Positions 16,261 to 60,400 of a stretch of 64,000 nucleotides of DNA are shown here, piece after piece. The notes beneath the pieces were generated by a model. The model searched no databases and had not been told where the DNA came from. It was given only the letters and a program-made list of their open reading frames with translations. Position numbers and translations under genes: made by a program. The stretch is from Gymnopus androsaceus JB14 (Eukaryota; Basidiomycota; Agaricomycetes; Agaricales; Omphalotaceae), in contig ML769523.1 of NCBI GenBank assembly GCA_009733575.1, positions 67,055 to 131,054 on the forward strand, in the 5' to 3' direction. Each line of letters begins with the position of its first letter. The first letter of the stretch is position 1.

Positions 16261-17401
16261 CTAATACTTCAGCCAACGACCTCGGTTTGCCAAAAGCATT
16301 TGGATGCGGTTAGGGAATGCAGCGTAGAGCTTTCGGACATAGTTGTTGAAGTCAGCGCTGTACCAAATGCTTTCAAGGGCAGCCCAAAGTTGTGTTTGGG
16401 AGCGTGGTGCCAGATTCATTTTTTCGAGACGTTGCTCAAGCTCCGCCCATGCATTTTTGATAGGACTAATATCCGGGGACTTCGACGGCCACTTGAGAAC
16501 GTAAATGCCGTGGTCTTTGAACCATTTCTGAGTGTCTCGAGCCGTATGTTTGGGATCATTATCCTGCTGGAAGATCCACCGGTGTCCTTCATATCCGGAA
16601 TCTTGAACACTTGGAAGCAGGGAGTCCTGGAAATCTATTAGCTTGAAGTAGACACTGGAAGCAAAGGACACGCACCTCTAAAATCTCCATATAGACAAAC
16701 CTGTCCATGATACCCTCAATACAACGAAGCTTTCCAACACCATTTTTATGAATACAACCCCAAACCATTACTGAGCCTTGTCCCAGCCCTCGACGGTCTC
16801 GCTGTGAGACTAGAGCCTCAGTCAACGGTTCCTGAGATTTGCGTCTACGGCACCAGCGAAGGCCATCGGAGCCTCCTGCAAGCACAAATTTGGACTCGTC
16901 AGATATCATCACCCAATACTGATCCCAACCAGCGGCAGTGCTCCAGTCCCGCCAGGTTCGAGCAAAAGCAAGGCGCTCTGCAAAATTTCGAGCACTGAGG
17001 ATGACTTTACAGCGACGGACAAATCCTACAAGCCCTGCCTTATGAAGCTTGTTGCAAACTGTGCATTGAGACACTCCTGGAAACCGTTTCCGCTGAAGGT
17101 CAGCACCATCGGTTGCATCCCCATTATCCAGGTCAGCAATTCCTTGGGCAAAATCTTCTTTGGAGATAGCAGGCAGGCGACCTTGACAAGACTTTTTGTA
17201 GTAGCATCCTTGGTTTCGAGCAATCTTGTAGTTGTGTGAAATAGTCGAGTGGTTGCATGCAGTATCACGGAAATATGGTGCATGATTGGCAATCCAATTA
17301 AAACTTTTATGCTCCTCGTCATGGTAGAGGAGGATTATACGGCGTTTAGTAGGTGTTACTTTGGCTGGAGGGAGCCCAATGGCCTTTTTGTGTGCAGTCA
17401 T
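16261..17401 (-). CDS. Tc1/mariner transposase, DD34E-type spacing with third acid replaced by Lys
   Basis: Two exons: 17401-16676 and 16626-16261, with a 49-bp GT..AG intron in phase 0; 363 residues, typical for the superfamily. An N-terminal helix-turn-helix region precedes an RNase-H-fold catalytic domain. First catalytic Asp is Asp168 (YWVMISDES); the second is Asp264 (WIFQQDNDPKH). Exactly 34 residues separate Asp264 from position 299, where the Tc1 catalytic Glu is expected in the PIENxW context. Here the sequence is SPIKNAWAEL, so position 299 is Lys (codon AAA). A single G-to-A change at a CpG (ATCGAA to ATCAAA) would explain it. The protein is otherwise open, so it is probably a recently inactivated transposase that may still bind its ends. 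Confidence 0.9.
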
Positions 17402-17420
17402 GGGCGAAACGAAAAAGTTT

Positions 17421-17480
17421 AGCGCTGGTTACGTATATGGTTTCCAAATCGGGGGTGCGGCTTTGGTTTCGCCGTCACTG
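17421..17480 (-). repeat. Right terminal inverted repeat of Tc1/mariner element
   Basis: Partner of 16034-16093; ends CCGTCACTG directly before the TA duplication. Confidence 0.95.
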
Positions 17481-19399: not shown

Positions 19400-21434
19400 G
19401 AAAGTGAACGTAGTTTTGCAGTGTACATGTCACGCTGGGCTAAATCAGATTCAGTATTTGTTGTTGGGGGGTCTAGGGCAGGGTCCCAATCCACTGCACA
19501 TTTCAAACAAGGAGCATTGAGTCAGCCAAACTCATTCTCATTGAAAATGACACAGTTGTGTGGAACAACATGGTAAGTACCATTAAGGTCGCAAATCCAA
19601 TAGCCTGCATTTTCATACCCAACAAAAATGCCCTCTGTATATCTAGAACCCAGTTTTTGCTGTTTCTCCTTCGGAACCCAAAAATATGCCTGGCACCCCC
19701 ATACCCTGAGTATTGAATAGTCTGGTTTGACCTTGTTCAACTTCTCAAAGGAGGTAATGTCTTCAGTCAATGCAGAAGTCAGCAATCACAAGACCAGATA
19801 TGTTGCCATGTCTACAGCATTATCCCAGAACAACATAGGTAACCCAGATGCATGGAGTAGGACTAAGGCCATGTCCTGAATCTGTCAAATCCAATGTTCA
19901 GCTTTCCTGTTCTGCCAGTGGGAATATGGAGCTGTCAAAGCATCTGAGATTCCACTAGTGCGCATAAAGTTGTGGATTTTCTTGTCATGGAATTCCTTAG
20001 CACCATCTGCACAAAGAGCACCTGTTTGTTCACCAGTGAGACATTCCTGTTTGTTCACATTTGAGACAAGATGTTCATATGCTTGCGGACATTTGGTAAT
20101 GTTCTTTGTGCTGACCATGGACATTGACGTATCAGCAATTAAATGGAAGTGTAGGGCACCATGTGGAGTTTTAACTGGCATCGGACCACAAGTATCCATA
20201 ATGAGGGGTTCCATAGGTTGAGAAGCATATTCAACGGATGTAGTATGTGGGGGATGGGTTGTTCGTCTTTTATGCATGGCAGACAATATTGATCCATTCC
20301 TTTCCCATTCCCAGTCCCATAGGTACCTTTGATAACTTTATTGACAAGATATTGACCTGCATGGCCAAGTCATTTATGCCACAGGTGAAGGTCCATGTTA
20401 TGGGGAGCGAAGGTAAAGAAAGCAGTTGTAGTAGATATGGCTGAGGACATGTTACTAGGAGGTTTCTGGAATTGACCCTCAGAAAAGATTAAGCAGTGCT
20501 CAATTCTCACAGTGAAGTAGGAGTGTGAAGAGCCTGCCTCCTGGCTAGAATCTGGAATATAGATCTTTGCAGAACTGCTGTCACAGACAATGCTAAAGCC
20601 ACTCTCCAGTAAGGCTCCCTGTGATATAAGATTGACAGGTGCATCAGGAGCGTGGAGGCAGTCAAGTAACTCTAGTATTAGGAATTGGTCAGATTCCATA
20701 ATGCGAGTCCTGAAGTAGCAAGTTCCAGAAGCAAAAGTCTTCATTGAACTGGAGTTTGCAATCGTTACAGACAGTCCACCACCAGGATTGTAAGTGTGGA
20801 ATAAAGAATGATCATGGATTATGTGGTTTGTGCATGCAGAATCCAGGAGAGTAGATTGTCCACATATTACAGAAATGAAAGCAACATTGTCCAATTTGCA
20901 AATTTGATTCAAGGTGGTAGCTGAGGCAGAAAAAGGCTCAAGGTGGGCACACAGAGGATAGCAAGAAACATGCAAGTCTTTGTTCATGGGGGAAGCAGTT
21001 ATAGAACCGCTACTTACAACCCCATCCTGCTCCAAAGCAGTAGCCATATTAGCCCTTGGTCCATATTTGTGACCAGTGTTCTGATTATTCTCTTTCTGGT
21101 TTGTCACTCCTGTACCACCCCCATCATTCGATCCAGTTGTGGATGGACCAGCACCAGGATTAGCGCTGCCCAAACCACCCGCATTACAAGCCTTCCATCC
21201 ATTACGACTGTTTTGGTTAGCACCGTGGTTGTTAGATGAGTTGCTTTTGCCTTGAAGTTCCTTCAAGTGTTTATCATTCTCGTAAGCAGTTTGAACATCT
21301 GAGGTATAGGCATGAAAGGTTTTGTAGTTGATTGGTTTGTTTGGGAATAAATGGGGATGATCAATGTGTTTGCAAATCTCATGGGCAACATGGGAGCAAG
21401 GACCAGTAGGAGGAAGAAGTTGTGCAAAAGTCAA
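19400..21434 (-). pseudogene. Ty1/copia gag-protease-integrase remnant, truncated before reverse transcriptase
   Basis: On the minus strand, 21434 to 20370 holds a gag tail, then the copia protease (STLLDSACTNHIIHDHSLF, with DSA in the DSG/A position) and the downstream block LDCLHAPDAPVNLISQGALL; it stops at LHLWHK, where the GAG-pre-integrase region should begin. From 20286 to 19885 an integrase core is visible: LIMDTCGP, ALCADGAKEF, and SHWQNRKAEHW with the catalytic Glu still present. From 19785 the integrase-RT linker (LRVWGCQAYFWVPKEKQQKL ... GIFVGYENAGYWI) follows, then a TGA at FG*LNAPC and loss of similarity near 19400. Reverse transcriptase and RNase H are missing, and no LTR pair is found. 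Clearly dead. Confidence 0.85.
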
Positions 21435-22030
21435 AAGAAGGGAAGACCAAACAATAGTCTCCTATAAGTAGACAGCTGATTCTGCCAGAGCAATGACAAA
21501 TATCCCAATAGATGTCGTGGGTCATTTTGCAAAATATTCCTGATAACTCCAAGTGCAAAAAAATATTGCTCTGGCTGTTCATTTGCCAAATATCCCGATA
21601 ATGACCGGATCAAAACTGGTTGGTCCAGCCGTAGGATCAGCAACACGGCAAATTTCAAGCTTCCGCTTTTCCCCCTGCTGAGCGCTTATTCCAATGGCGC
21701 TTATTTCTTGCTTTTGCCAAATATTTGGTAAAACTGATATATTCACTACAATAAATATTTGCCAAATATTCAACCATAACAAAATATTACCCAAAATGAA
21801 TATCAAAGGGACCTTGGATAGTGTGCTAAAGCTATTTTGTGTACAGTGAGCAATCATAGATAATGGGTCATGAAATATAAAGAAATTCAGTATCATAGCG
21901 ACAAACTGAGATGTTTTGCGAAATATTATGATAGTGATCATCCTAACCTTGATTTCTTCCTAGGGGGCTCTCCTGCTTCTCTCATGAGACTCTCTAAAAC
22001 CCACTTCACATCCTTCAAGAGATAAACCCA
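21435..22030. other. AT-rich spacer, no gene supported
   Basis: Several copies of GCCAAATAT and its complement occur (near 21590, 21716 and 21764), which suggests a decayed AT-rich repeat. No terminus or coding sequence could be defined. Confidence 0.4.
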
Positions 22031-24926: not shown

Positions 24927-24972
24927 GGTGTTTGATTTGAAAAAAATTTGACAGAGTTTGATTAGGCTCGTC

Positions 24973-25024
24973 CCCACCCGTTCTCCGATTTGATCCGTGC
25001 TAGCACGTTCGGAGAACGGCTGGG
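24973..25024. repeat. Left-end hairpin outside the inverted repeat
   Basis: Stem CCCACCCGTTCTCCGA (24973-24988) pairs with TCGGAGAACGGCTGGG (25009-25024), 15 of 16 positions, loop of 20 nt. It abuts the inverted repeat at 25027. Confidence 0.8.
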
Positions 25025-25026
25025 CT

Positions 25027-25114
25027 CCACTTGCAGTCACTAATAGGGTCACAATTTTGTGACTTTGACTTAGCGAAATTTCATCTTTTCCTCTGCGATC
25101 AGTTTACAGTTTTC
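25027..25114 (+). repeat. Left inverted repeat of the DUF6589/RecQ element
   Basis: Begins CCACTTGCAGTCACTAATAG; inverse of 31829-31916. It includes an internal palindrome-like GTCACAATTTTGTGAC. Confidence 0.9.
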
Positions 25115-25333
25115 CTTTTCATACTTCACTGACCAAATTTCCCGCCACCAGACATAGTTAATAGATCATCGAGACATATGAATAAACTGATACATCAATT
25201 CGAATGACTTCCCTGCATGAAAATCCGTGAAAACGTACAATTTTGTGTATTTCTGATCCTCTTCCCGCAGACAATATTCAGAATTTCGTGTCTGCACCAC
25301 TCCCAAACCCCCCTAGATGATCCCCCGTGTGCT

Positions 25334-28300
25334 TTAATCAAACAGATCCTCCTCATCGCTGAATTCACCATCAAGATTACCTTGAATAACATCCTCCATG
25401 TCCAAATCAACATCCTCCGCTGTTGTTAATGGCAGCATTGGATCACGTACGCCGTTCTCGATATCATCAAGAACTCGATCAAACTCCCCAACCGTGTACC
25501 CAGTGCCAATATCCTCAATTTCCTCTGGTATTGGCCAAAAAAGTAGTGAGGGTGATATTGGCGAAATGTCTGCCGGCTCAGGAGATGCAGCACCTGGTCT
25601 CGGAGAGGCATTAGGAGCACTAGGGATAAATGGGGGCAAACGCGAATCGGAACAAGCCGAGGAACTACTGTCGGTTGAAGGAGAGGGAGACCGAGAGGGA
25701 GGAATTGGTGGTTCGGTGTCATCAATGTCAACAGGGGCCATGCGTCGTCGTCGTTGTAATTTGGTAAATGCTGCCTCGTATTCAGTAAGAGGGTTCTCGG
25801 TTCCTGTTGTCAGAGAAATGAGACCGACTAATACAACGTCGTTGGCAATCTCGTTGTCTTCATCCACTTCACGGCCCTTGATTGTCTTGTAAACATGCCA
25901 TCCTGTAAGACTTGACATGAGCGTGTCGATGTCATTCCCGAGGTCAGTTTCCGTATGCAGGTTTCCCTGATCTGAGCCCAGAACACTATTCATTGTCCTT
26001 GCCAGACTTCGGAGAACATCAATGCAGGGTGTTATCATGGAGAGCCACTCCCAAGACATGTTACTACCATGAGCCTTGTAAAATACCTAGGCACTTTTTA
26101 TCATTCTTTATTCGGGCTAACATAGCATAATAATCACCTTGATCCAATAGTTCAGATGCTCTTGTAGTAGATCCAACTCGAGGAAGCGCTTCTTGCCCCC
26201 TGTGGTATTGACAAGCCAATTATTGAGTACGATTTTCCTATGAAGGAGATCAGTAAAGTAGATGCGCAAGAACTAGATAATGTACTTCATCTCTTCTGGC
26301 CACACAACCTCAATGTTGTGGATAAGATGCAGCATTTTGTATGCATATTTTGTGCGTCCACTGCCTCTAAAACTCAGTGCCCATATTTTCAACACTAGAA
26401 CAACGCGTCCCGAATCTCCAGCTTGTACAGCGTCAGTGAACTCGCGAGAAATTAAGGCGTCACGAAGGAAGAGAGCCGCGTTTTCAAAGACCATATCCCT
26501 TCACCACTGCCCCGACCACCTGCAAACTTGCGTGCTTGTCGCAACTCTTCAACAACAGAAGAGTTTGCGTAACGGTCCAGAATTTTTTGGGCATCAACGT
26601 AAATTTGTTCGAAGCTGAGTTCCTCTGACTCGGCATATTCTTCCAGGGAAGACTTTTCCGGATACAAGTAGAAGGCAATGGAGAACCCGAGCATAAAGTG
26701 AAACAAACACAAGATCACGGCAGGTACGGAAGTTGGGAAGGGATGTGGGGACAATAGGTATTCGGTTGAGAGCCGTATTATGGAAGGCAAGTGAACCAGG
26801 ATTGCTAGGTCTAGCTGTAGCATTTTCGAAGTGAGTAGCAAAAATACCAGTAATATCGGCCATCTTGGAGTGAAAAAGCCCTGGCATCCAAATGCCCCAC
26901 GCGAACCCTTCATAGCCAGTCTCTTGTCCTGCACGTATATTCTCAAGTGCACGAAGACGGGCTATAGAAAGCTGGTCTCCTGCAATAAACCGCACACGCT
27001 CCCAGAATCTGTGTACTCACTTGCGAAGCTCCAGCACATCAACAACAGCCGAGTCAGCCTCTGCATTGCCGGTGATAGAAGATTCGTCAATATTGAGAGC
27101 ATTGACGGGATATATTTCGGTTTTGTGAGGTTGGATACAGAAGGATGACTGGGGTTGTTTCTGGTCGACCTCCTTTTGTAGAGCAGCAAGCTTCTCCTGT
27201 CGACTAAACTTGATGATGATATGGATGATGGAATGAATTAAGCATTCTCGAAAGAGATATTCTTCAAACTCGTTGTGAACAATGTCTTTGATATGCAGTG
27301 GGCGTGCACTATCAAAGGCAGCCTGTAGAACGGATGCCTGTATATCTTTCAGACGAGCAGCCCAAAGCTTGAATATAGTTATACATGTTCCGTTTTCTTG
27401 ATTATCTATTTCAAAGAATGTCAGTATATCATTAAGATAGGGGGAAAATTGTGCTTACCATGTTTTCCGATAACTTGCTCTGCTGTGCGATTCATAAAAT
27501 TTATGTTATCGTAAACTTCACCGAAGAGTCCCACTGAAGCAACAGTGCGGGCTTGTACACGCAAGCCATTTGAGAGTAAACGAATTAGCCCAAGTCTCCT
27601 TTTTTTGGGTTTTGAGTCGGCTGGCGAAGGAGGAGCAGCAACATCAAGAGATGCAGTACAAGTTCCAGATGGACTGGAGGTTGTGGAAGCGGCTGGAGCA
27701 TGAGGAACGGTATCGTTAGCGCTGGAGGATGGCGTCTCAGTGGTGGATGTAGTCATTCCCGTGGCCGCACCAGAATCGGTTTCAGAAGCAGTAGCTGTAG
27801 CTGACTGTCTTACACTGACTTCTTCATTGCGAATCATATCGGTATAGCTGGTGCAGATTCCAAGCTTAGAGAGAACAGTGAAATTCTGTCGCTGTACACC
27901 CGAGGCATATAGATATAGCCCCATCATGCGCTGAGCCAGATTGTTTCCTAAGTTGTGCTCTCGCAAGCACGCAGCTATTGCAGATGTTGTTACCTGAATA
28001 ATAACCATTAATGACCTAGCTGAAATTTAAGAGAGAGTCTTACCATCTGTCCACGAGCATTTCGTGCTTTACCAAAGCTATCTGAGCGATCGGACGATTT
28101 TGTGACTGCTTCAAAGACACGGACTATGATACTGGCTTCCTTTTGAAAATTGTTGGTGAAGCTTATCGAAGGTGAATGATGAGACAAAAGTTTTATTAAT
28201 GAGTTCATCGTGAGTTTTAAGTAAACCCAGTCGAGTAATATGGCGCGCAGATTTCCCAATCTCTGCACAGACATGGCTTACAGCCCATTCATGCACCTCT

Positions 28301-28824
28301 GATCGTACTGAAGCACTTTTAGCATGAATCCACCAGTCCAGTAACTGAGTAATCCGCCCATGAACAGCTGCAAATTCATGCCACCGAACAGCTCCTGCAT
28401 CCGAGTCTGGGTTGAAATAGTACATGCAGAGGTTTCCAAAGGTGAATCCACGGCTGTGAAGATAATCGAGACATCCGCGAAAGGTCTCCTGAGCATGAGC
28501 CAGCTTCCGCTCAGCCTCGAGATGTTCTTCTAGCTCCTTTTCAGCAGCTTTTTCGGCCAGTGTTTTGGCTCTTTTCTTCTGGCCCTTTTGGAGCCGCTTC
28601 TCCTGCCGTTCTTCCACCGTGCCTACAACCGGGCTGCTAAGAACAAGCCCCGGAGACAGTTCCAGAGGAGGGAGGTCTGCCTGTCCACTACGGCTACGGG
28701 ATGGAGTAATAGGATTGCATATCGGATGAGAATCGGAATAAGAGCGAATTCGCTGTCGAGTGGGTGTGGTGTCATTGCCGTGAGGAGGAGAGCTTGGAGG
28801 AAGAGAGCTCAGAGGAGAGCTCAT
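25334..28824 (-). CDS. DUF6589-like protein (basidiomycete family of unknown function)
   Basis: Starts at ATG 28824 (MSSPLSSLPPSSPPHGN); stop TAA at 25336-25334. A charged coiled-coil-like stretch (KRLQKGQKKRAKTLAEKAAE) precedes the conserved body. Blocks I recall from DUF6589 proteins appear in order: VYDNINFMNRTAEQVIG, DNQENGT after the intron 27406-27458, FIAGDQLSIARLRALENI, GIWMPGLFHSKMADITG, and LRDALISREFTDAVQAGDSG with SGRTKYAYKMLHLIHNIEVV. The C-terminus is acidic and Ser/Pro-rich. Clear introns: 27994-28043 and 27406-27458; others lie near 26990-27020, 26500, 26200 and 26080. A frame change without splice signals near 28150-28170 suggests an indel. Function unknown; conserved Asp/His/Glu residues could be catalytic, and its place inside an inverted-repeat unit makes a transposase-like role possible (inference only). 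Confidence 0.72.
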
Positions 28825-28873
28825 CGAGGATAAAGCCAAGAGCAAGAGCGCCTAAATTTTGTCTCCTATTATC
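28825..28873. promoter_or_regulatory. 49-bp head-to-head intergenic region
   Basis: Separates the two ATGs of the DUF6589-like and RecQ-like genes. This is very short for two fungal promoters, so the pair probably shares overlapping promoter elements, or one true start is further downstream. Confidence 0.5.
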
Positions 28874-31743
28874 ATGTCTCCCGAAAATCTCCCCTCTAAC
28901 CTTCCTAGAAACAATAAAGCAAAGGTCCTGAAACATCAGTCGGCAGCGCCAGAAAAAAGAACCGTTACCAAATATTCAGCGGGAATCACTTTTAGACAAT
29001 GAGTTGGAGGGACTGGATGACTTGGTGCGGAAAAAGTTCAACAAACCATATACATTGAAGCCTTTCCAGCGTCAAGCCACAATCGCTCAACTGCAGGGAA
29101 AGGATGTTATAGTCCATGCACCTACTGGTTCAGGAAAGACTGCAATCGTTGCAGGTCCGCATGCACATCCCAACTGTACGGGGAAGGTTACGTTCGTTGT
29201 TTCTCCTTTGATTGCACTCCAAAATGAGCAGGCGGAGACTTTCAAAGCAGATTACGGACTCGACGCAATAGCAATCAATAGCAGTCATGGCGGACTTACA
29301 CCTGAAAACATACTTGTAAGCTTATAGATATTTTGACCGAAGATATACTCACCAGATATCCTCAGAACATCTGTCTTGGAAAGTATCAAGTTGTGGTGAT
29401 CTCACCAGAGATGATGCTCACCAAACGCTTCATCGGAAACGTTCTCAAGAATCCGATGATGGCGCGTCGAGTCTTTTCAGTAGTGGTTGACGAGGCTCAC
29501 GTAGTCTCACATTGGGGATCCCAGTTTTGCAAGAAGTACGCAGAGCTTGGTATTCTGCGGGCCATCCTTCCTAATGGAACCCCATTTGTGGCATTGTCGG
29601 CAACTCTTCCCAAGCGTGTTCACATTGACGTCCTTGAAAAGCTTCGGTTTCCAAAGAAGAAGGAGGACTATATTTCTATCAATATCGGGAATAACAGGCC
29701 CAATGTCGCGCTCGTTGTACGTGCTATTGAACATCCCATGAATACTTTCCGAGACCTCGACTTCATCATCCCGCAAAACTGCTCCAATCCCATGGATATC
29801 CAGAAAACATGGGTGTACGCCGATTCTATTGCAGTAGGATGCGACATCCAGGATCATCTTGAAGATTGCCTACCGAAGGAGTTGCAAGGTCAAGGTTTGA
29901 TTTGCCCATATAGCGCTGCCTACTCACAGACGTACCGCAAGGCTGTCATGCAGCAGTTCAAGTCAGGGATTGTTCGTATTCTTGTCTGTACAGATGCCGC
30001 GGGAATGGTAGGTCGCATCAATGAATGACAAAAAGAAAGCATTACTGACTTACAATAATAAGGGATGCAATGTGCCAGATATCGACCTTGTGTTCAATGG
30101 AAATTACCCGGTTCAACATCTTCATTCGTTCAACGGGCAGGACGTGTTGCACGAGATCCTAGGAGGAAGGGATTGGCCGTTCTGTTGGTAGAGAAGTCGG
30201 CATATGGCTTCAACTGCGAGGAGTTAGTTGAAGAGGTCAATGAAGTGAAAAAGAAAACAAAAGGAAAGGCACAAACCTCACGTAAACCACAGAAAACAAC
30301 TGGTGAATATGCAAAGGGAGGCAAGGGCTACGCAGAAAGTCGTGGAGTTAAGCGTGGATCGCACAACAGAAAGTGTGATGGGCTTGCGCATGCTGGATGG
30401 TCACCGGTGATTGACCGGCGTGCAAAGGATGAAAATCTTCTAGCGTTTGTGCAAACCGGCTGCTGTCGTCGCGATATGCTAACCGCGATTTTCGATAACT
30501 ATGGTTCAGGTCAGTCATTCTTGAGCGAAACCAGCCAATACTCACCACATCCATATTAGAACCATCGAGCCCTTGTTGCGACATATGCCATCCCGACCTT
30601 TTCCACCGGACTCGACCCGGGTTCTACAAAGCTCCAGCTCGTCAGAAGGCCGTTGTGAAAGGCGTCGTTCACAAACCCACCAAGCAAGCATTACACGAAT
30701 GGCGAGTTCCGGTCTATCGAGAGCACCATTCGCGTGCGCAGTGGTCCTTCGGAGCTCTGCTCAGTAACGAGCATCTTGATCTTCTTGCTTCGATAGGCCC
30801 AGTGAAATCCTTCGAACATCTTGAATCGATTATGGCGAAACAATGGAGTTGGTGGGACCAGTATGGTGAACAACTCTGGCAAACAATCGAGAAACTCGAC
30901 ATGCCGCCTATGGTACCACTTCTGAAGACGAAAAAAGGGACGAACAAGAGAACAGTTGAGGATGGTGAGGAAGAACCGGCCAAACGAACGAGAGTAGATG
31001 GTGGTAACAGATCAACTGCCGTCATTGATTCTTCTCAGCATCGTGGCGCGTCTCATGCTGTTGAACACGCGCCGTTACCTTCAGATGCTTTGCTGCATCG
31101 TTCATTCCCATCCCTGCCGACCCCTGCTTCTACTCCTGCACACTTGGATACCACTCACACTCCAAGCTCTTCCCAACGTACTGTCCCGGTTCTGATTTCA
31201 AGTCATTCCCAAAATCCCTGCGACACTCTGTTCTCAACACCTGATCGTACACAATTTGTGTATGAAAACGGGCTATCGACTCCCGTATCACATCCGCCCC
31301 GCGCACGAAACCAAATCCCGCCAAGCAATCCCCAGTATCCACCGAACCAAAACCTCGACTCGTATCCCAGTATCCCCAATATCCAGATGGTTATTTTTTC
31401 CCCGAAACTCCAGCTCATAGCCGACTCCAGTTCCGTTACTCATCCGCTCCAAATCCTTCCCCAAAATATACAATATACGCCCATCCAGCAATCCCATCGT
31501 TACCCACCACCAAATGGCTATACAATGCCACATCCTCATCCCTCACAACGTTCCAACCTGGGCATTCTGCTCATCCTGCAATGTACAACCACCACCACGG
31601 CTATCCAGATCATCAGTATACAGAAGCAGCAGGTCCGACGAGTCAAATTTCCGCTGCAGATACTGCGCCGAGAGCAGATTTGGGTGGGCCAGAATACCAA
31701 AATCACACATTCACGAGTTTTTTCGGGGGGAGAAGATGAATAA
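28874..31743 (+). CDS. RecQ-like superfamily 2 DNA helicase
   Basis: Predicted ATP-dependent 3'-5' DNA helicase. Exons: 28874-28924, 28980-29315, 29366-30007, 30063-30509 and 30560-31743; with one base of frame correction this gives 886 residues. Motif I is APTGSGKT (residues 64-71), motif II DEAH (171-174) in VVVDEAHVVSHWG, motif III FVALSATLP, motif V CTDAAGMGCNVPDIDLV, motif VI SFVQRAGRVARDP. After this come Cys residues of a RecQ-type zinc site (TGCCRRDML, then PCCDICHP) and a Ser/Pro/Thr-rich tail of about 300 residues. Between motifs V and VI (about 30089-30092) one base is missing, so the copy as assembled is frameshifted. It shares the inverted-repeat unit with the DUF6589-like gene. 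Helicases of this type are also known near fungal telomeres, but no telomeric repeat is present. Confidence 0.88.
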
Positions 31744-31828
31744 AAGAATATATTGGAATATTAGTATGTATAGTTGATTGTTGAAACAGTTTTGAGGCCG
31801 GTATCGGAAGTTGAGGAAGTAAGAGAAA

Positions 31829-31916
31829 CGAAATTGTAAAGTGATCGCGGAGAGAAAGGCGAAATTTCGCTAAGTTAAAGTCACAAATTTGTGACCCTAT
31901 TAGTGACTGCAAGTGG
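31829..31916 (-). repeat. Right inverted repeat of the DUF6589/RecQ element
   Basis: Inverse of 25027-25114, ending TAGTGACTGCAAGTGG. It lies 85 bp after the helicase stop codon. Confidence 0.9.
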
Positions 31917-31919
31917 TTC

Positions 31920-31988
31920 CCAGTCCTTCGGTAGCCGTCTCAGCTGTTGACAGCTGATTTGAAATTGGCGGATACCGAACGGAACTGG
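31920..31988. repeat. Right-end hairpin outside the inverted repeat
   Basis: CCAGTCCTTCGGTA (31920-31933) pairs with TACCGAACGGAACTGG (31973-31988), with two bulged bases; the loop holds a second small palindrome, CAGCTGTTGACAGCTG. Same position relative to the inverted repeat as the left hairpin, but a different sequence. Confidence 0.7.
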
Positions 31989-32236
31989 CGCCGCGAGTCT
32001 ACTCCGTGGCCTCCTCTACAGTGTAAATCATGAGGAATAAGTAGCCTTATAAGTACTGGGTTGGATTGATAGGAGTACTTGCACTGCCCGCTAGGTTGAT
32101 GTCTCCTAGGGCACTAACTCGACAACCGATGTTCTACAGTGACGGCCAAAATTGATGAACCACCCCCAATATAATATTGAACTGAATCGTTGCCAGCACA
32201 GCACTGGAATTTCACCGGTTTCGAAAACACCTATAT

Positions 32237-45009: not shown

Positions 45010-45540
45010 ACTACAGATCTTTGTTATGCTGGATCCAATGCAGATTTAAGCCTGAAATCACAATATATCAGTTTAGTTGATTGAAATGCTTATAGCCTCA
45101 CTGACTTAAGAAAAGTCCTTCAGCAATTTGAATTGACACAAACCTTGAAGTACCTACTTCAGTATAACTGAACATTAAGAGGTTGTAGTAATCAGGGAAA
45201 AGCTGTGGCTGCCTCCAATTCCTGATCAGCTACTATCCAAGTGCTTGATGGAAGGTCCAGGGTTAATCACTTGAATCTTATAGATCACACACTTACAGAA
45301 TCTTTCACTGCTCAGTATGCAATCTAGAGAGATAGTGGTCACTGGTTGAAGTAAGAGCAAGGGCAAGGTTGGCAGTAATCACATGAAAATGGAAGTCATA
45401 AGTGCTTAGCTATTCAATACTATAATTTATTTGATATTTATAGTTACACAAGGTTATGCTAAATATGGCAATGCCATACTAGAGTAAATAAATGTTGAAA
45501 ATACACTGGGTGCTGCTGGGGTACATTGGGGTAACATTGA
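45010..45540. other. Intergenic, nothing recognised
   Basis: No open frame, repeat or motif that I could support between the foldback-like element and the minisatellite. Confidence 0.4.
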
Positions 45541-45551
45541 GGTGACCTTGG

Positions 45552-46216
45552 AATCCCCTATCCTGTTCTACCCCTATCCCCACACTCACCCTATCATACT
45601 ATCTCCTATCCCATTCTACCCCTATCCCCGCACTCACCCTTTCACACTAACCCCTATCCCATTGTACCCTATCCCTGCACTCACCCTATCACACTATCCC
45701 CTATCCCTGCACTCACCTATCACACTATCCCCTATCCTGTTCTACCCCTATCCCTGCACTCACCCTATCACACTATCCCCTATCCCATTCTACCCCTATC
45801 CCTGCACTCACCCTATCACACTAACCCCTATCCCATTCTACCCATATCCCTGCACTATCCCCTATCTTGTTCTGTCCCTATCCCTGCACTCACCCTATCA
45901 CTATCCCCTATTCCCGCACTCACCTTTTCACTCTAACCCCTATCCCGTTGTACCCCTATTCCCGCACTCACCTTTTCACACTAACCCTTATCCCTGCACT
46001 CACCCTATCACACTATCCCCTATCCCTGCACTCACCCTATCATACTATCCCCTATCCCTGCACTCACCCTATCACACTAACCCCTATCCCATTCTACCCC
46101 TATCCCCGCACTATCCCCTATCCTGTTTGATCCCTATCCCTGCACTCACCCTATCACACTATCCCCTATCCCATTCTACCCCTATCCCCGCACTCACCCT
46201 ATCACACTATCCCCTA
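45552..46216. repeat. CCCTA-rich minisatellite
   Basis: About 660 bp of imperfect units such as CCCCTATCCCATTCTACC followed by CCTATCCCTGCACTCACC and CTATCACACTA, in variable combinations (roughly 46-47 bp full unit with shorter variants). One strand is open throughout and would encode a Pro/Tyr/His repeat peptide, but nothing else suggests a gene. Confidence 0.9.
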
Positions 46217-47530
46217 ACTATGACTCAATTTAACTTGTAAACTGTACTCGGAGTCACAACACTACCTACAATGGTCACGCATATCATGATTACCTATATC
46301 ACCCTGATTTTGATCACATGTCCTGCATGATTCAGCTGCTCATACAAAAATACAAGTTGCTGAATAATCTCCACTGCTTTTCATGAACCGGCAGGCTGTT
46401 GCTGTCAGATTTCCGGGCTGTTGGTCTGATCGGATGTGTGTGTTTTTCTTGTATTAGTAAGATACATGTATGATTGTATGTGTATCTTACTAATTTGAGC
46501 GCTTGTCACAAACTGGCAGGCTGTTGCCATTGGATTTCCGGTCCATCAGCCATTGGTCTGATCGGACATTTGCAGACTTGTAAATATTATCTAGATAAGC
46601 GCCCATGAGCGCTAAAGTACTAAACACATATACAAACTAGAACACTATTGCCTATACAGCAATTACTCCTTCCATTTTTGGTCAAATCACATCCATTTTT
46701 TGTGAATCGTTATTATATTGATATGACTGCATGATTATTAAGTTAGGCACTAATTCCGATGGTGAGTATAGGTTGGATTCCACTCCAATAGTATGGATGA
46801 TGTCCAAAAAATAAAAAGCGCTTAAAAAACTTAGAGCATCTAAAATTTCCTAATGGAGATCCACACAGTTACAAGTCTTGGTGAAAATCCCACACTAAAC
46901 CTGACGTCTAAGAACTGAGTTTCCTTATGTAAAGTAAGGACTCGGAAATTTCAATGAATATGTGACCCAGTAGGACTCCGGTGTGACAGCTTGCACTATG
47001 GCCATTGCGGAAGGGTTGTTTCGGGGTTGTTTCAAGGTTGTTTTCAATCAACAGGGCTGTTTAATAGAATTATCTGTGAGTTAGAGAAGGATTGGAGGGA
47101 AGTGTGTTGTAGTATGAAAGTTGCAGGAGTACAGGAGAAGACCCTGTGTTACTTATATATGCTTTGCAAAAAGGACTTAGAACTTTCAATCTTTTAAGAC
47201 AGGAAGGGTATGGAATGAGCGGTGGTCAACATTGAAATCCTGTAAGGCCTCCTGGCTGTGAGGCTAAGAGGCGGGAGAGGCTGGTATGCAGACAGAAATA
47301 TAGCAGAAGCTGAATACCAGCTAAGAGCCTTCAAATCCCACCAAACGTCAACACAACCCAATCTACATCTGCAAAAGTACCCTATTGCCTAGGGGTTTCT
47401 AAGTTAGCCTCAGGTACCCTCAGGAAAACTGGGACACCCAGGGTGCCCAGGCTCCCTAGGCTTGCTGAGAATCCCAAGGGACACCCCCCAATTCCTAGGG
47501 TAACTGAGGATAAAGAAGTATTCTCCAGGA
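46217..47530. other. Intergenic with a hairpin and short direct repeats
   Basis: A hairpin at 46453-46494 (ATTAGTAAGATACA paired with TGTATCTTACTAAT) is flanked by two related segments containing GGCAGGCTGTTGC and GGTCTGATCGGA (46390-46434 and 46514-46566). The segment 47034-47070 is an inverted match to 43489-43525. No gene supported. Confidence 0.5.
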
Positions 47531-51176: not shown

Positions 51177-52000
51177 TGTTAAGTCCGTGCAACCCGGAGC
51201 GGAGCGGCCGAGGTATCGGACGGAAATAGTCCGGAAAGGGTCCGGGCTGGACCTCGTGAGATATGGGACTCGGTGAAGCTATTGGCAACACCCTTGACAC
51301 GCCGTAAGGTGTCCCGAGAGGAAAACAATAGGGTAAGGCCTAAGCTAAGTCAAGGCAGCGGAACCGAAGGCGGAGCCGAGGTTTTGCCGAGATCACGTGG
51401 CTGTGTCGGCTTAGTAACCGGAAACGTCGGAAAGACAAAGGCAAGACTCGGAAAGTGAGACCAGCTAGACTAAGTCAATTTTGGAGCTAAAGTTACAATA
51501 CAAGTTTAACTACTTAAATACTACTAAGTCTGGATAAATGGGGAAAGTGTTTAACAATAAGAAATAGATTCCCGGGAGCCGGACCGGGTACTCGGTAAGT
51601 AAAAACAATAAAGTAATTCAGTAGCAAAAGACAAAAGAACATAAAAGGCAATAAAACAATAAGTACCATAAAACAAAAGCATGGGAAAGGCGTCCGAAGG
51701 TACTGGGGATATATCCGAGGCTGTTCCGAGGGTTTCCGAGGGTTACCGAGGCTCGGAATGGAACGGAACGGCTCGGCTCCGGCGGACACGGAAGCGAGAC
51801 TGGAAAGCGAGGAAAGACCATAATGAAGTCCAAACAAGTCAATGACTTGCAACCGGGTTCCGGCCGAGGTATGGCCGAGGTTTCCGAGATTGTTACCGAG
51901 ATATAGGCTCGGTAAGCCTCGGAAATAGGCGCCGGAGGCTCGGCGGTAATTTAGGGGTAATTGGTGGACTTTGGAGGCACCGGAATGCATGGATATAACA
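51177..52000. mobile_element. Solo LTR, CCGAGG-rich (824 bp)
   Basis: Begins TGTTAAGTCCG and ends GGATATAACA, so the tips are inverted (TGTTA/TAACA). The 5-bp word GTTTT lies directly before (51172-51176) and after (52001-52005), a target duplication. Much higher G+C than its surroundings, with many CCGAGG words. No internal retrotransposon sequence remains. Confidence 0.88.
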
Positions 52001-52180
52001 GTTTTCCTCAATCATTACCAAATCAAGTTGAAGAAGGCCAGTGCTGGTGGAGCCAGCAGGGACACCATGCTCTTGCATCAGGATGCAATGAAAATTATTG
52101 AAAGTGTGCAAGGACTCCATGTTGCAAATACAGGCCAAGAATTGTTCAAGTTGGAAATGGCAGATGATATCCAACAACTA

Positions 52181-52642
52181 GTTCATGGAATCCATGGACT
52201 AGTATATTTTGTAGTTCATGGATTCCGTAGAGTAGTATATCTTGTAGTTCATGGAATCCATGGACTAGTATGTTTTGTAGTTCATGGATTCCATGGAGTA
52301 GTCTATTCATTAGTTCATGGAATCCATGGACTAGTATATTTTGTAGCTCATGAATTCCATAGAGTAGTATATCTTGTAGTTCATGAATTCCATAGAGTAG
52401 TATATCTTGTAGCTCATGGATTCCATGGAGTAGTATATTTTGTAGTTCATGGATTCCATAAAGTAGTATATCTTGTAGTTCATGGATTCCATGGAGTAGT
52501 ATATTCTGTAGTTTGTGGAATCCATGGACTAGTAAATGCACTAGATTGTGGATTCCATAGACTAGCATATTCATTAGTTCATGGAATCCATGGACTAGTA
52601 CATTTACTAGTTCATGAATTCCATAGACTACTATACTATTTC
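52181..52642. repeat. 33-bp minisatellite, 14 units
   Basis: Unit of the type GTTCATGGAATCCATGGACT + AGTATATTTTGTA. Each unit holds the near-palindrome CATGGAWTCCATG and often ACTAGT. Both strands are open across the array: plus gives 14 repeats like VHGIHGLVYFV, minus gives repeats like HGIHELQDILL. Confidence 0.9.
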
Positions 52643-52717
52643 TCCTTAAAACTCACGTACAGCCCACAAACCCATCCTATGAATATTTTCATGATTTTTC
52701 ATGATTTTTCCACTAAT

Positions 52718-53215
52718 TATGGCACCTCATGCCCGACTTTTGTCATGTGACACATGTCACACTGTCACACTACTTATACAGTATACCTTATCCCTAGATC
52801 TCCTTCTGGAATCCATCTTCATAGTAATCAAAAGCTTAATTTATAGTTTGTGTGACAGTGTCATATGAGTGCTGATGGGATCAGCAGAGGTAGGTTGCTT
52901 GGTATAGATGAGAAAGTCATCACTGTAACAATCAATCACTATTTCAAAAATTTCCATTTGTACTGTGTGACAGTGTCACATGATTCTTGATGGGATCAGT
53001 AGAGATAGGTTATCAGATGACTAGATGAGACCATCATCACCATCATTATCAATACCTATTTGGTTGCCAATACTAAGAAGACATGGAATCCAGGACATCT
53101 GGAATCCATGGCCCTGGATATCCTGTGGATTTACTTCATATCAAATACTGGATTGTAACACTTTGGCCTATCTAACATGATATAAATTGTGGTAGCCTGG
53201 AATGTAAATTTTGCC
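52718..53215 (-). repeat. Right arm of second long inverted repeat
   Basis: Inverse of 49264-49791 with many substitutions and small gaps. Confidence 0.75.
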
Positions 53216-53692: not shown

Positions 53693-53923
53693 CATTTTTA
53701 AGCCTCAGCTATTGTCCCTAGGGACGAAACTACAGGCCAGGAGCAATATTAATTGTGTCCTCCCCCCTTTGTGCACATAACGGTGGAGTCTCGACTCACC
53801 GTCAGGCATACTCGCTCGAATACACGAGCGTTACAGGAGGAGGGCTCACAGCTCCCTTTTTTTGACACTACTCTGTCACCAGACCTGACACGTACCAAAG
53901 TTGTATTAAAAAATCATAATACA

Positions 53924-56900
53924 ATGTCATCTACTGCCACCGTTAGAAATCCATCAACGGCGACAGCTAAGACGCCTGCGCTGTTCCCACCTGTGAGAAA
54001 GTCACCACGACCTTCAGAGAATAATTCTGAAGCTGAGTCGCAAGTAACGGGGGAAAAATCGCCTAAAATTCATGAAGGCCATGAAACCCCCAACACTGAA
54101 GGTAGAATAATTTCTCCGGAACAGACAAATTCTCCTAATGGATCCGTGTCCGGTGGAACCATATTGGACAGAACAAAGGCCCTAGAAATGATGAATAATG
54201 AAGCGGCAAACGTTTCAAGTGTCGGGAACCGATGGAGTGGAAAGAATTCAGGGGTAGGGATATTTCAATCTACCCCTATACGGATCCCGCGGGGACCATC
54301 CTTGTTCCCTCCAGATGCACCTAAATCGTCGAAACAAGTGACGCTTGGGAAGAAGGGATTGGATAGGAAATCCGACGCAGGTTCAAACGTGCCAGCAGAG
54401 GGAAAGTCGAAATTAGGACACTCCTCGCTGAGTACAAATGATGATAATATTATTGATTTTGATAGCATCGACCAGGAAGGAACCAATGCCCCTATTTCGC
54501 GTTTCGTAGCAGGACTTCCAAAAACTCCTGCGGAAAATGAATCGCAATCACCGGTTCAACATCAAACTGATAACCGGGAATTTAAGGGTAAAGGTAAGTC
54601 TGCCAAGAAGGTGAGTACTAATCATTCCTCGAGTGACTTATCGGAATTGAGGCCCGAGGATTCTGCATCCCAAATAGGAAGCAGACCATCGGCTAATAAG
54701 AATGTCGCATTGCCCGGGAATAAACCGTCGGCCAAAGCGTCGAATATCTCGAATTCAAGTGCAATGAATGTGAGAGTTTTACGAGAGAAATTGCGCGGAT
54801 GTGTAATATTGCAAATGTTACATGATATCGACGTACTTAGTAATCAAAAAACGATAGTTCCACATCAAGGAATTACGTTCAAGGAAGAATGGGGGTTTGA
54901 CCCAAAAATGCCTAGCGTCAAAATTAACGCTGACCAGATACCAGATGAGGATGTCATCCCTTATAGGGACCAGTATCCCGAGGTTAAGGATGAACCTCCG
55001 GCTGCGAGTCAGGATGCACAGGAACCCAGTGATCGTAAGAATTCTTCGAATAAGAGGAGATCGACTGGAAGGAAGCGTGGACGCAAGAGTAGTAAGAAGA
55101 ATGACAAGGATAATAAACAGCCTTCTCGTACCCCAGATAATGGTGAACGGGACAGGAAGGGTGGTAAGCGTCGAAGTGGTAATAAAGGAGACCCTCCTTC
55201 AGAACCATCAGATAGTAGTAGCGATAGTGACGAGAGCAGTGGAAACGATTCAAACGAGTCGGAAGACCAGTCATGGAGTGAGAATGAAAATTACTCACGA
55301 AGTAATGGCAATCCCGGTCAAAATAAATCAACTGCCCTGAACAACCGCTATCACTCGGAAGCTCCGAGTGACAGTATGGCTGAGAACTACACTTACGACC
55401 CAACACCTCGCACAAACGAGGAAATTTTGCGTGTTGCATTTGAGCGGTACCAAAAACTGATTGAGTTTCAATTGTATGGGCCACCGATGAGAATAAATTC
55501 GGCAGCCCACAAGACAATTGTCCAAAACACTCCAAAGCCTGGTAAATATGGTGGTAGTACAAATTACGCGATATTTGATGATTGGATAATAGGGTTTATT
55601 CAGTGGTTGAATATTGTGGACAATTGTGGACCTGCAACACGTTGGAGCGTGAGCAGACAAGCTTATGTTCTTACATCAGCAGACATAGTCAGAGTGAATA
55701 CCCTTGGCTCTTTCCTAGAAGGGGAAGCGCTGAGGTGGTTCAGATCAACTGTACAGAGGGTACCGAGTGGTTTTCAAGTGGAAACTACGGACCCGTTAGC
55801 TCACCGTTGGTCCTTCATGCAGGTGGTAAATGGATTGTACCAAAGATTCATTCACGAAGCCTCGATTTCAGAAATGTCGGATAAATTTTATCAAATTAAA
55901 TATATTCCGTCTAAAGGTGTTAAGAGCATGTTTGAAGAACTGGAACGTTGGGCTACATGTATGCCTATGCCACCAGATATATATACGTTTAAAAAGCGTA
56001 TCATGCTTCTGGTACCATCGGATATCTGTAAAGACATGACCAAAATTGAAGGCGTGTCTGCAGAAATGTCATCTGTAAACGACATAATGAAGGCTGCGAT
56101 CGCTTGTGAAAAAAGCGAATGGGCCAACAAATACTACGACAATGCACGCGTTGCTGCCGAACAAAATCAGAGTGCAATGAGAAATGCTCATAGAGATTAT
56201 ATCTCACCAACGTCATCCAAAGATCGAAATAGATCTTTGGTAAAGCCTAATGAATCTCGTGCACCGAGACGATTGCAGGTGGTTGAGGACAGGAGATATT
56301 CAATCCCTGACCACAAGAACCGAGTGAGTTATAATGAGCGGAAGGACAATAAGGAAAGGGATCGTGCATCCCGACCAACCTTCCCGCCTGGTTCCTGCTT
56401 TGATTGTGGCGAATTTGGCCACTACAGAGGGGATCCCAAGTGCAAAAAGAACAATACCACTAATAAAGGACCTTCAAATACAGGACCTCGTCCACCAAAG
56501 ATGTACCGAATTGCTGAGGAGGTACAGAAGGATGGGGAACGCCTATTCAGGCTGGAAGTGACTAATTCCGAAGGTAATGTGGAATTGTCGGATGAAGAAA
56601 TTTATGCAAGGTATGCATCCTCCAACCAGGAAGATGCGGACCACATTGAGCAAGCTTCCGAGGATGAACTGGATCCTTGGGGTGGATCTCAGTATGAAAG
56701 TGATGCTGTGGATGAAGAATACCTACCAGACTCACAGAGTGGGGAGAAAACGGAACCAACTGAGCGTTTGGGACATATCCGTGATTGGGATTCCTTCGCA
56801 GACCACTGGAAAGACAAACTAGAGAGTGAATTTGACTCACTGGTAGATTTATCGGATGAGCCGTTAGAGCAGGTGAATTTGGATGATGTGGAAAATCTGA

Positions 56901-57436
56901 ATATCACCAAATATATGCAGTCAATGAGTGCTACCAAAGATGGTGGCTATCAGGCGACATTGAAACCACGTAAAATAAGAAGCACTTATGTTGGTAAAAG
57001 ACCCCTGCGTGAGAGTGCAGATAACCGGTGCCTAAGTGCAATGTTGGAAATCAATGGGGTGGATGCATTCGTACTGTTTGATAGTGGAAGCACGTCCGAC
57101 GCCCTAAGTCCTGACTTTGCACGAGTCACACACGCAGACGTTTTTCAACTTGATAACCCGGTAACGTTGCAGCTGGGGACAAAAGGAAGCAGGTCACGGA
57201 TATCGTACGGCTGCATGGTACCTTATTCGATCCATGGCGGTGAACATGGGGATATCAAAGGTAAAGATTACATGGACATAGCAAACATTGACAGATATGA
57301 TGCTGTCATTGGGACTGTGTTTATGAGAAAGCATGGCATTGCCCTGGATTTTGAGAGCAATGCCATACGCGTGAAAGGGAAGAAAATACCTACTCTCACC
57401 AAGGGAGAGGAGTCCATTGAACTGGCACGTTGCTAA
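53924..57436 (+). CDS. gypsy-2 gag-protease polyprotein
   Basis: 1,170 residues from the first ATG (MSSTATVRNPSTATAKTP); the frame is open 57 codons further upstream without ATG. The N-terminal 500 residues are Ser/Pro/Lys-rich and probably disordered, with a basic tract (RRSTGRKRGRKSSKK). The gag core follows (about residues 545-740; IFDDWIIGFIQWLNIVDNCG, LGSFLEGEALRWFRSTVQR). A CCHC zinc knuckle, CFDCGEFGHYRGDPKC, is near residue 825. The aspartic protease is at the end (AFVLFDSGSTSDALSPDFA, near residue 1050). Stop TAA at 57434-57436; pol continues in another frame, so a frameshift or re-initiation is needed for expression. Unusually large gag for the family. No damage seen in this ORF. 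Confidence 0.92.
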   Translation: MSSTATVRNPSTATAKTPALFPPVRKSPRPSENNSEAESQVTGEKSPKIHEGHETPNTEGRIISPEQTNSPNGSVSGGTILDRTKALEMMNNEAANVSSVGNRWSGKNSGVGIFQSTPIRIPRGPSLFPPDAPKSSKQVTLGKKGLDRKSDAGSNVPAEGKSKLGHSSLSTNDDNIIDFDSIDQEGTNAPISRFVAGLPKTPAENESQSPVQHQTDNREFKGKGKSAKKVSTNHSSSDLSELRPEDSASQIGSRPSANKNVALPGNKPSAKASNISNSSAMNVRVLREKLRGCVILQMLHDIDVLSNQKTIVPHQGITFKEEWGFDPKMPSVKINADQIPDEDVIPYRDQYPEVKDEPPAASQDAQEPSDRKNSSNKRRSTGRKRGRKSSKKNDKDNKQPSRTPDNGERDRKGGKRRSGNKGDPPSEPSDSSSDSDESSGNDSNESEDQSWSENENYSRSNGNPGQNKSTALNNRYHSEAPSDSMAENYTYDPTPRTNEEILRVAFERYQKLIEFQLYGPPMRINSAAHKTIVQNTPKPGKYGGSTNYAIFDDWIIGFIQWLNIVDNCGPATRWSVSRQAYVLTSADIVRVNTLGSFLEGEALRWFRSTVQRVPSGFQVETTDPLAHRWSFMQVVNGLYQRFIHEASISEMSDKFYQIKYIPSKGVKSMFEELERWATCMPMPPDIYTFKKRIMLLVPSDICKDMTKIEGVSAEMSSVNDIMKAAIACEKSEWANKYYDNARVAAEQNQSAMRNAHRDYISPTSSKDRNRSLVKPNESRAPRRLQVVEDRRYSIPDHKNRVSYNERKDNKERDRASRPTFPPGSCFDCGEFGHYRGDPKCKKNNTTNKGPSNTGPRPPKMYRIAEEVQKDGERLFRLEVTNSEGNVELSDEEIYARYASSNQEDADHIEQASEDELDPWGGSQYESDAVDEEYLPDSQSGEKTEPTERLGHIRDWDSFADHWKDKLESEFDSLVDLSDEPLEQVNLDDVENLNITKYMQSMSATKDGGYQATLKPRKIRSTYVGKRPLRESADNRCLSAMLEINGVDAFVLFDSGSTSDALSPDFARVTHADVFQLDNPVTLQLGTKGSRSRISYGCMVPYSIHGGEHGDIKGKDYMDIANIDRYDAVIGTVFMRKHGIALDFESNAIRVKGKKIPTLTKGEESIELARC

Positions 57437-60400
57437 GCAAAAACCGTCTCAACGACCATTCAGATAAAAGATGGTGAGGAGATTCCTGTGAAAAGCAGGC
57501 CCAATAAGTATGGGACAGTTACACAGGAGAATTGACGGTTACCAGGTGGTGCTGAACTCGCTCGTTCTGACAGGGCAGCACCGCCCTGGTCGCGTTTTGG
57601 TCCTTCTGTGGAAGATATCACGGAAGAACCAGCAGAGCGAGTTTCCTTGAATAGAAACTTACCGGTACTACTTGGCCCTGAAGACCAAATAAACATGGAT
57701 GATATAGAGCATATGGTGGACGATGTCACTGGTGGATCCTATACAGATCCTGCATTTAATAAACGCCTACATGAAGTAGGCAAATTAGTGGATGAATTTC
57801 GAACACAGAAGTTCACCGAACAGCATGACATTGTAACGTCGAAACCAACTGACGTGATTGAATCGCTGAATGCAGTGGCGGAGAAGTTCAAGTCGAGAAT
57901 AAATAATTCGACTCCACTTCTGGAACAGGTAAAATTTTCTGAGAAGGACATACCCATCCTCCGTGAAAAGTGGTTAGAAACCTGTAAAGATATTATGGGG
58001 GGCGTCCCAGAAGTGGTCCCACCATTGCGTGAAGTGAACCATACCATTCCGTTAATTGACGAATCCGTACATTATCGGATGTATAGACCGAGATGTCCTG
58101 ATTCGCTGAGAGCGTTACTGACTGAAAAAATCGCACGTTATACACGCGCTGGCTGGTGGAAACCAATGTCCGTTGGCCAGGCTTCCCCAATGCTTTGCTT
58201 ACCAAAAAAGGATGGTGGGCTAAGAACAACGATTGATTGTAGGGAGCGAAATGCGAACACGTTCAAGGACGTGACACCGCTTCCAGATCAAGATGCACTA
58301 CGAATGGATGTTGCAAGACACAAAATACGTTCGAAAATTGACTTGTCGGATGCGTACAAGCAAGTTCGAGTTGTTGCTGAGGATGTTTGGAAAACGGCAT
58401 TTTCAACGGTACAAGGTACCTTTGTAAGTACCGTATTACAGCAAGGTGACTGTAATGGTCCCTCGACGTTCCAGCGATTGATGAATACGATATTCCGAGA
58501 CTTTATCGGAGTATTCATGCACGTGTATATTGATGATATTTTTGTTTTTAGCGATACCATCGAAGAGCACGAGAAGCACCTACAGATTGTTTTCGACACA
58601 CTTCATAAACAACATCTGTTCTTGAAAGGCAAGTAAAGTAGAATTGTATGCTGCAGTTATGGATTGCATGGGCCATGTAATTGATGACCGTGGTTTACAC
58701 GCTGATGCTGATAAACTTGCGAAAATCCGCGAGTGGAGGCAGCCTAGGAATTATAATGATGTCCAAAAATTCCTTGGACTCGTTAATTATTTGGCACACT
58801 TCTTGCCCGATGTAACAGCTTACACAAATCCGTTGTCTGAGAATGTCAAGGAACAACCAACTGTTCTTCTGGCGTCCAGTACATGATGTGTGCTTTCAGA
58901 GAATCAAAGATCTTTGTTGTAAGGTACTGATTCTCCGTCCTATAGATCCTAGATCGGGTCTTCCGATTTGGGTTGTTTGCGACGCGTCCGTTTCAGGGAG
59001 TTGGTGCACTGTATGGTCAAGGAGAATCTTGGGAAACGTGCTGTCCTGCTGGATTCATGTCAAAGAAGTTCACAGATGCACAGAGAAATTACCGTGTGTT
59101 TGAGTGCGAAATGCTTGCGATCTTGGAAGCACTCCTGAAATGGGAAGATAAACTGATTGGATATAAAATCCACGTAGTTACTGATCATGAAGCACTTACA
59201 TTCTTCCAGACACAACGGAAGTTGAGTAGCAGACAAATGCGCTGGATGGAATACCTATCGCGGTTTGACATTGATATAACTTACATCAAAGGTGTGACAA
59301 ATAAAGGTGCCGATGTCCTCTCTAGATATTATGAGAGCGACAGCGTAGATGAGCAGCACGTTTGGAGAGAATACGTAAATGCTGGATGCTCGCTTGGATA
59401 AATTAGGTGAGGACTTGCCTATTGGTCGGAAAGCAGAGTTGGATGCACGGCATGAGCAGCTGTTTGCAAGGCAGAACGCTCTGGATGCAGTGGAGCCTAG
59501 GGATATGGAGGCTGACGAGCTGGAATTGGCAAGAGAGGCGGAAATCCCTGAAAAGGTGAGTAATGAACTGGATCCGATTGTGGGTGAATCCCGAAACAGC
59601 GAGATTGCGAATGCAGAATTGGAGGTAAATTCCGACCCTCAATTTCTGAGCGATTTGAAGGCTTGTTACAACAGCGACATGCTATTCAGCAAGGTTTCAA
59701 GTAAACCGGAGGACCACCCACGATTAGAATTACAAGGTGGGTTAATATGGACCAAGAATTTGAATGGTTCCAAGGTGTTATGTGTGCCAGAAACTCCTAA
59801 AGGCATGCGTTCACTCAGGGGATTAATATTGGAACAAGGTCACCACAGTGTGGGACACTTCGGGCCACAGCGAACGGCTGACTATATCAGACGTTGGTAC
59901 TGGTGGCCTAAAATTTATGGAATGTGTGACAAGTTCTGCAGATCATGCGAGAACTGTCACCGTGCGAAAGGGAGACTATCGAAAACCTGCCGGGAAATTG
60001 CATAGTCTGCCTATTCCCCATAGACCATGGGAGTCGATTGGAATGGATTTTATTGGTCCATTCCCGGAAATGAAAGGTTTCAATTATTTATGGGTTGTCA
60101 TATGCAGATTGACGTCCCAAGTTCACTTAATCCCTTGTAATACAAAGGATACGGCGACGGACTTATCTCTACGGTACATGCAGGAAATAGTACGACTGCA
60201 TGGCCTACCGGAATCAATTGTGTCTGACAGGGACCCCAAATTTACTTCGATTTGGTGGCATGAACTTCACCGATTATTGGGATCAAAACTGCTTATGTCA
60301 ACTGCGTTCCACCCTCAAACAGATGGTGCAACAGAAAGAGCGAATTGTTCGATTGCGCAAATATTTAGAAGCGCGATCCGGGCTGATCAGCATGACTGGC

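Follow-up and report, generated by a model that had tools for sequence, protein, structure and literature searches.

In the 64,000-nucleotide stretch of the Gymnopus androsaceus JB14 genome analysed here (the window; contig C141:67055-131054 of an 83.3-Mb assembly in 934 contigs), a gene of the Pfam family DUF6589 and a gene for a RecQ-type helicase lie together inside an element of about 7 kb. Our data show that this element belongs to a family of mobile DNA transposons, the copies of which are flanked by 9-bp target duplications. We regard it as quite probable that the family falls within AcademH, the helicase-encoding Academ transposons, with DUF6589 as its predicted DDE/D transposase and the RecQ-type helicase as a likely accessory. 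What is new here is the assignment of a likely transposase role to DUF6589.

Termini, copies and target duplications

A genome search with the 88-bp inverted repeat first noticed in the window gave 40 matches, many of them in facing pairs that span about 0.5 to 3.8 kb, so the further copies that the initial annotation had proposed to look for do exist. Within the window the first 28 bases of the repeat match exactly twice, with no other match at up to three mismatches (0 expected from shuffles). The inverted repeats are real and somewhat longer than first described: the 88 bp are embedded in arms of 114 nt with a complementarity of 84% (Table 1). When 38 repeat arms were aligned together with their outer flanks from across the genome, similarity in most of them ran outward past the 88-bp repeat and stopped at TAGGCTCG or, on the minus strand, at TAGACTCG. 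The 88-bp repeat, initially taken as the end of the element, was rejected as the true terminus because the outer flanks of most copies are alike up to TAG(G/A)CTCG and differ beyond it. It is subterminal, and the element ends at 24963 and 32001, close to the outer limits of 24973-31988 drawn at the outset.

Sixteen copies were inspected for flanking duplications. In four of them (L018, L021, L023 and L024) the ends are degraded or unrecognised, which leaves 12 with both ends free of mismatches, and identical 9-bp direct repeats flank 11 of these 12, the exception being the window copy. When the flanks of one copy, L014, are joined, they align with C347:12636-12818 at 95% identity, unbroken across the junction and with a single 9-mer; this is the empty site of L014, located at a related repeat. 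Copies L009 and L011 have internal deletions; the pieces that they have in common with the window element are up to 97.7% identical, and both carry duplications. With common ends, 9-bp duplications and an empty site, the early suggestion of a mobile unit is borne out. L014 (C249:30502-31556) was inserted into sequence that is repetitive in its own right, abounds in GGTTACGG-like motifs and has at least 38 further matches besides the two flanks of the copy.

Table 1. Coordinates of the element and its parts, in window positions.
Feature	Position	Strand	Remarks
Whole element	24963..32001	none	7039 bp; TAGGCTCG...CGAGTCTA at ends; matching 9-bp flank absent at window copy
Left terminal inverted repeat	24963..24970	+	8 bp, TAGGCTCG; common to copies with 9-bp target duplications
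Left foldback	24973..25024		just inside end; arms of 16 nt; 24963-25026 folded as DNA gives -15.9 kcal/mol (z -3.56; 0/200 shuffles as stable)
Left subterminal inverted-repeat arm	25014..25127	+	contains 88-bp repeat
DUF6589 gene (limits are those of open frames)	25334..28851	-	Pfam; predicted DDE/D-type transposase, apparently intron-split, damaged
Candidate catalytic codon, E	26159-26161		read from DNA
Candidate catalytic codon, D	26975-26977		read from DNA
Candidate catalytic codon, D	27508-27510		read from DNA
RecQ-type helicase gene (limits are those of open frames)	28932..31743	+	about 4 exons as read from DNA; long C-terminal tail
Right subterminal inverted-repeat arm	31816..31929	-
Right foldback	31920..31988		just inside end; 31917-32001 folded as DNA gives -20.3 kcal/mol (z -4.39; 0/200 shuffles as stable)
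Right terminal inverted repeat	31994..32001	-	8 bp, TAGACTCG on minus strand; from comparison of copies

DUF6589 as a likely transposase

Both genes lie where the initial annotation had placed them. A Pfam scan of the window frames finds DUF6589 (PF20231) on the minus strand, where the match is spread over three reading-frame pieces (best E 3.9e-38). DUF6589 is all that Pfam reports for these frames, with no named transposase family among the matches. A profile search of PDB sequences with DUF6589 returned nothing at E <= 10, and in Foldseek alone neither of two AlphaFold models of DUF6589 relatives matched anything at E <= 0.001. The best structural matches of the two models include the P-element, Hermes and RAG1 transposases. 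The predicted fold is of the RNase-H type, one that the initial annotation had proposed to look for, with an all-helical insertion ahead of the last acidic residue, and the conserved D, D and E occupy the positions expected of a DDE site. In the alignment these residues are kept, among the rows that have a letter at the position, in 19/19 (D19), 50/51 (D156) and 20/24 (E415). Because the models match transposases best and the D, D and E are conserved, DUF6589 is very likely the transposase of these elements, as judged from prediction.

Comparison with relatives shows that the gene in the window is damaged: a stop interrupts the frame at 27017-27019, and a stretch near 26490-26650, with further stops, is read out of frame. 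With its transposase gene disrupted in this way, the window copy has probably lost its autonomy.

On the plus strand the Pfam scan finds DEAD and Helicase_C. The assignment to the RecQ type derives from helicase relatives in the same genome, whose best PDB matches are BLM, WRN and other RecQ-family helicases. Three segments of the window helicase (about 28989-30514, the C-terminal part lying outside this comparison) align to relatives without stops.

Pairing of the two genes across the genome

Genome searches gave 115 matches for Pfam DUF6589 and 47 and 70 matches for two helicase queries, which merged into 59 loci of each kind, both counts being lower bounds; in 14 control genomes no DUF6589 match was found. 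In 26 of 59 cases a DUF6589 locus has a helicase locus within 6 kb, where the density of loci would predict about 0.54; the adjacency that the initial annotation wished to see tabulated in other Agaricomycetes is thus frequent in the host genome. The two genes are on opposite strands in all 26 pairs, 22 of which are convergent and four divergent, the window pair being among the latter.

Six convergent pairs (C213, C189, C29, C4, C15 and C24) were checked for ends, and five of them sit between TAG-ends with 9-bp duplications. These are perfect at C213 (6606 bp), C189 (6464 bp), C29 (6553 bp) and C4 (6919 bp), while the pair at C15 (8317 bp) has one mismatch in each end and a duplication of 8/9; the ends of C24 could not be resolved. 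The DUF6589 frame of C213 is 99% identical to protein P0121 of G. androsaceus JB14 (Agaricales, Omphalotaceae). Among the divergent pairs, C601 has the ends and lacks the duplication (4/9), as does the window copy, and at C13 the left arm alone was seen. There are thus two subfamilies of opposite gene order that have in common the TAG(G/A)(C/T)TCG termini, the 9-bp duplication length and both proteins, the duplication length of the divergent (window) subfamily being read from its short copies. Two pairs on contig C4 (C4:498943-503127 and C4:517090-521271) have identical scores and lie 18 kb apart, probably through segmental duplication.

For the remaining 33 of 59 DUF6589 loci no helicase partner was detected; among them are fragments at the ends of contigs and one group whose open frames are long. 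Loci without a detected RecQ neighbour were seen on C136, C67, C807, C462, C187, C195, C126, C533, C612 and C781, several with very long frames of up to 1185 aa. Such loci possibly form a helicase-less or helicase-diverged subfamily.

State of the window copy

At the window copy no target duplication was found at any length from 7 to 11. Exchange between two copies was considered as a source of unmatched flanks, and the search for ends joined to swapped flanks found none: one search gave 0 matches against 1 for a backwards control, and a second gave two one-mismatch matches against a control of 1. No empty site was seen for this copy, whose 500-bp left flank matches the genome once, at itself. 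The simplest guess for the missing duplication is a rearrangement beside the element. The 41 bp immediately to its right (32002-32042) recur once, at C194:47271-47311 (L038), with 98% identity and with the element absent.

Possible mechanism

DUF6589 subunits would pair the 8-bp ends and the subterminal repeats, excise the element and insert it into target DNA through a stagger of 9 bp, a last step for which the duplications and the empty site speak. The helicase may open the foldback ends, or might aid repair or replication of gapped DNA at the donor and target sites; any short copy that has these ends would be mobilised in trans. The foldbacks on which the first of the helicase roles is based are strong at the window's own ends and may not be general across copies: of ten folded end slices, z <= -2 was reached in four, namely both window ends and both L014 ends, and some slices of other copies stop before the second arm.

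Relation to known transposons

The initial annotation had seen in DUF6589 the possible transposase of a new class of mobile element. The transposase role is upheld by the predicted fold; the novelty of the class is not, since published fungal Academ elements have RecQ/DEAD helicases and AcademH makes 9-10-bp duplications. Most likely the element represents a new family within Academ (AcademH), a transposon lineage already known. The available text of a 2019 survey (PMC6416283) describes PF00270 and recQ_fam domains in Academ copies from fungi and their frequent annotation as host genes, in which they resemble our element; DUF6589, ends and duplications do not come up in that text. AcademH is described in the accessible part of PMC10045372 as helicase-encoding, with 9- or 10-bp duplications related to the helicase, and excerpts of this paper and of PMC10799480 trace helicase-encoding Academ transposons to Kojima 2020. 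Widespread insertions of putative non-autonomous Academ elements are reported for the Marasmius oreades genome (PMC8290104, in excerpt).

Measured against these partial descriptions, with transposase sequences and terminal motifs standing outside the comparison, our element resembles AcademH in several respects. It has a DEAD/Helicase_C helicase gene, with RecQ-family PDB matches of its relatives. It has 9-bp duplications, present at the 11 of 12 matching-end copies and at C213, C189, C29 and C4, and absent at the window copy and C601. Its host is a fungus of the Basidiomycota, where AcademH hosts are fungi or animals, and its transposase is predicted from fold and from the conserved D, D and E to be of the DDE/D type.

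Other superfamilies fit less well. The RNase-H fold predicted here, in which an all-helical insertion precedes the last acidic residue, is also that of the Drosophila P element and of hAT (Hermes). Target duplications of P elements and hAT are 8 bp, in contrast to 9 bp here, and we know of no RecQ helicase partner in either. Mutator-like elements (MULEs) make duplications of about 9 bp, as here, and use DDE chemistry, yet their transposase domain was not matched by the scanned frames, in which DUF6589 and the helicase domains alone passed the Pfam cut-offs.

The element could instead stand for a separate DDE/D superfamily, with a fold closer to those of P elements and hAT than to that of Academ, and with a RecQ helicase acquired independently. 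The P element and Hermes are the closest solved folds among those listed, and Pfam offers no named transposase family for the DUF6589 frames. In the literature searched the name DUF6589 was not found (PF20231 matched only irrelevant optics work), nor was any link between DUF6589 and the Academ lineage. The nearness to P and hAT does not, however, speak against Academ, because no Academ transposase is among the structural matches listed; and the helicase, the 9-bp duplications and the occurrence in Basidiomycota all agree with the AcademH description in its available parts. We consider a separate superfamily unlikely. Its most explicit form, to which we give similarly little weight, would make DUF6589 the transposase of a large superfamily of its own in mushrooms, with a P/hAT-like fold, an obligate RecQ that opens foldback ends and transposition with a stagger of 9 bp; such machinery would then account for hundreds of fungal proteins now called 'hypothetical'.

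A comparably doubtful reading keeps the transposon and makes its helicase a passenger that takes no part in movement and serves, for example, in repair or in countering host silencing. It would accommodate the 33 of 59 DUF6589 loci, long-frame group included, at which no helicase neighbour was detected. The pairing is nevertheless kept between subfamilies whose helicases are only about one third identical, and across the change of gene order, which suggests selection to retain the pair. Far less probable is that DUF6589 and RecQ are host genes trapped between two ends of a short non-autonomous element. Such an origin would suit the many genomic copies of both families and the missing duplication at the window copy. 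Against it, 26 DUF6589 loci have the helicase beside them, invariably on the opposite strand, TAG-ends and 9-bp duplications enclose the pair at five loci of the second subfamily, and DUF6589 has a predicted transposase fold. We give almost no credence to a Helitron-like rolling-circle element, a reading that might be suggested by the helicase and by the foldbacks close to the two ends of the window copy. Helitrons make no target duplication and encode an HUH/Rep protein with a Pif1-type helicase; here 9-bp duplications flank nearly all matching-end copies, the 8-bp ends are inverted, the helicase is of the RecQ type and no HUH/Rep domain was found in the frames scanned.

Wider occurrence and neighbouring sequence

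Pfam DUF6589, a family of unknown function, thereby gains a likely one, that of the DDE/D transposase of RecQ-carrying transposons. Many DUF6589 genes, and the RecQ genes beside them, that annotations now treat as hypothetical genes of the host would be transposon genes. Protein searches for DUF6589 relatives returned 371 and 255 proteins, two sets that possibly overlap; the named organisms among the best 120 of the 371 and the best 120 of the 255 are all Agaricomycetes. In viral contigs, 10 pattern matches to DUF6589 relatives were obtained, none of them confirmed. Elements with clear ends are now available for probing the role of a transposon-borne RecQ helicase.

The window holds other probable repeats, judged by reading their translations. 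On the minus strand an open reading frame (ORF) at 16589-17428 resembles a Tc1/mariner-type transposase and another at 20370-21461 a Copia-type gag-pol fragment. Long ORFs of short repeated peptides at 45488-46240 and 51950-52750 are probably repeat DNA, and zinc-knuckle Gag, reverse transcriptase and integrase ORFs on the plus strand at 53753-60690 resemble a Gypsy-type LTR (long terminal repeat) retrotransposon.
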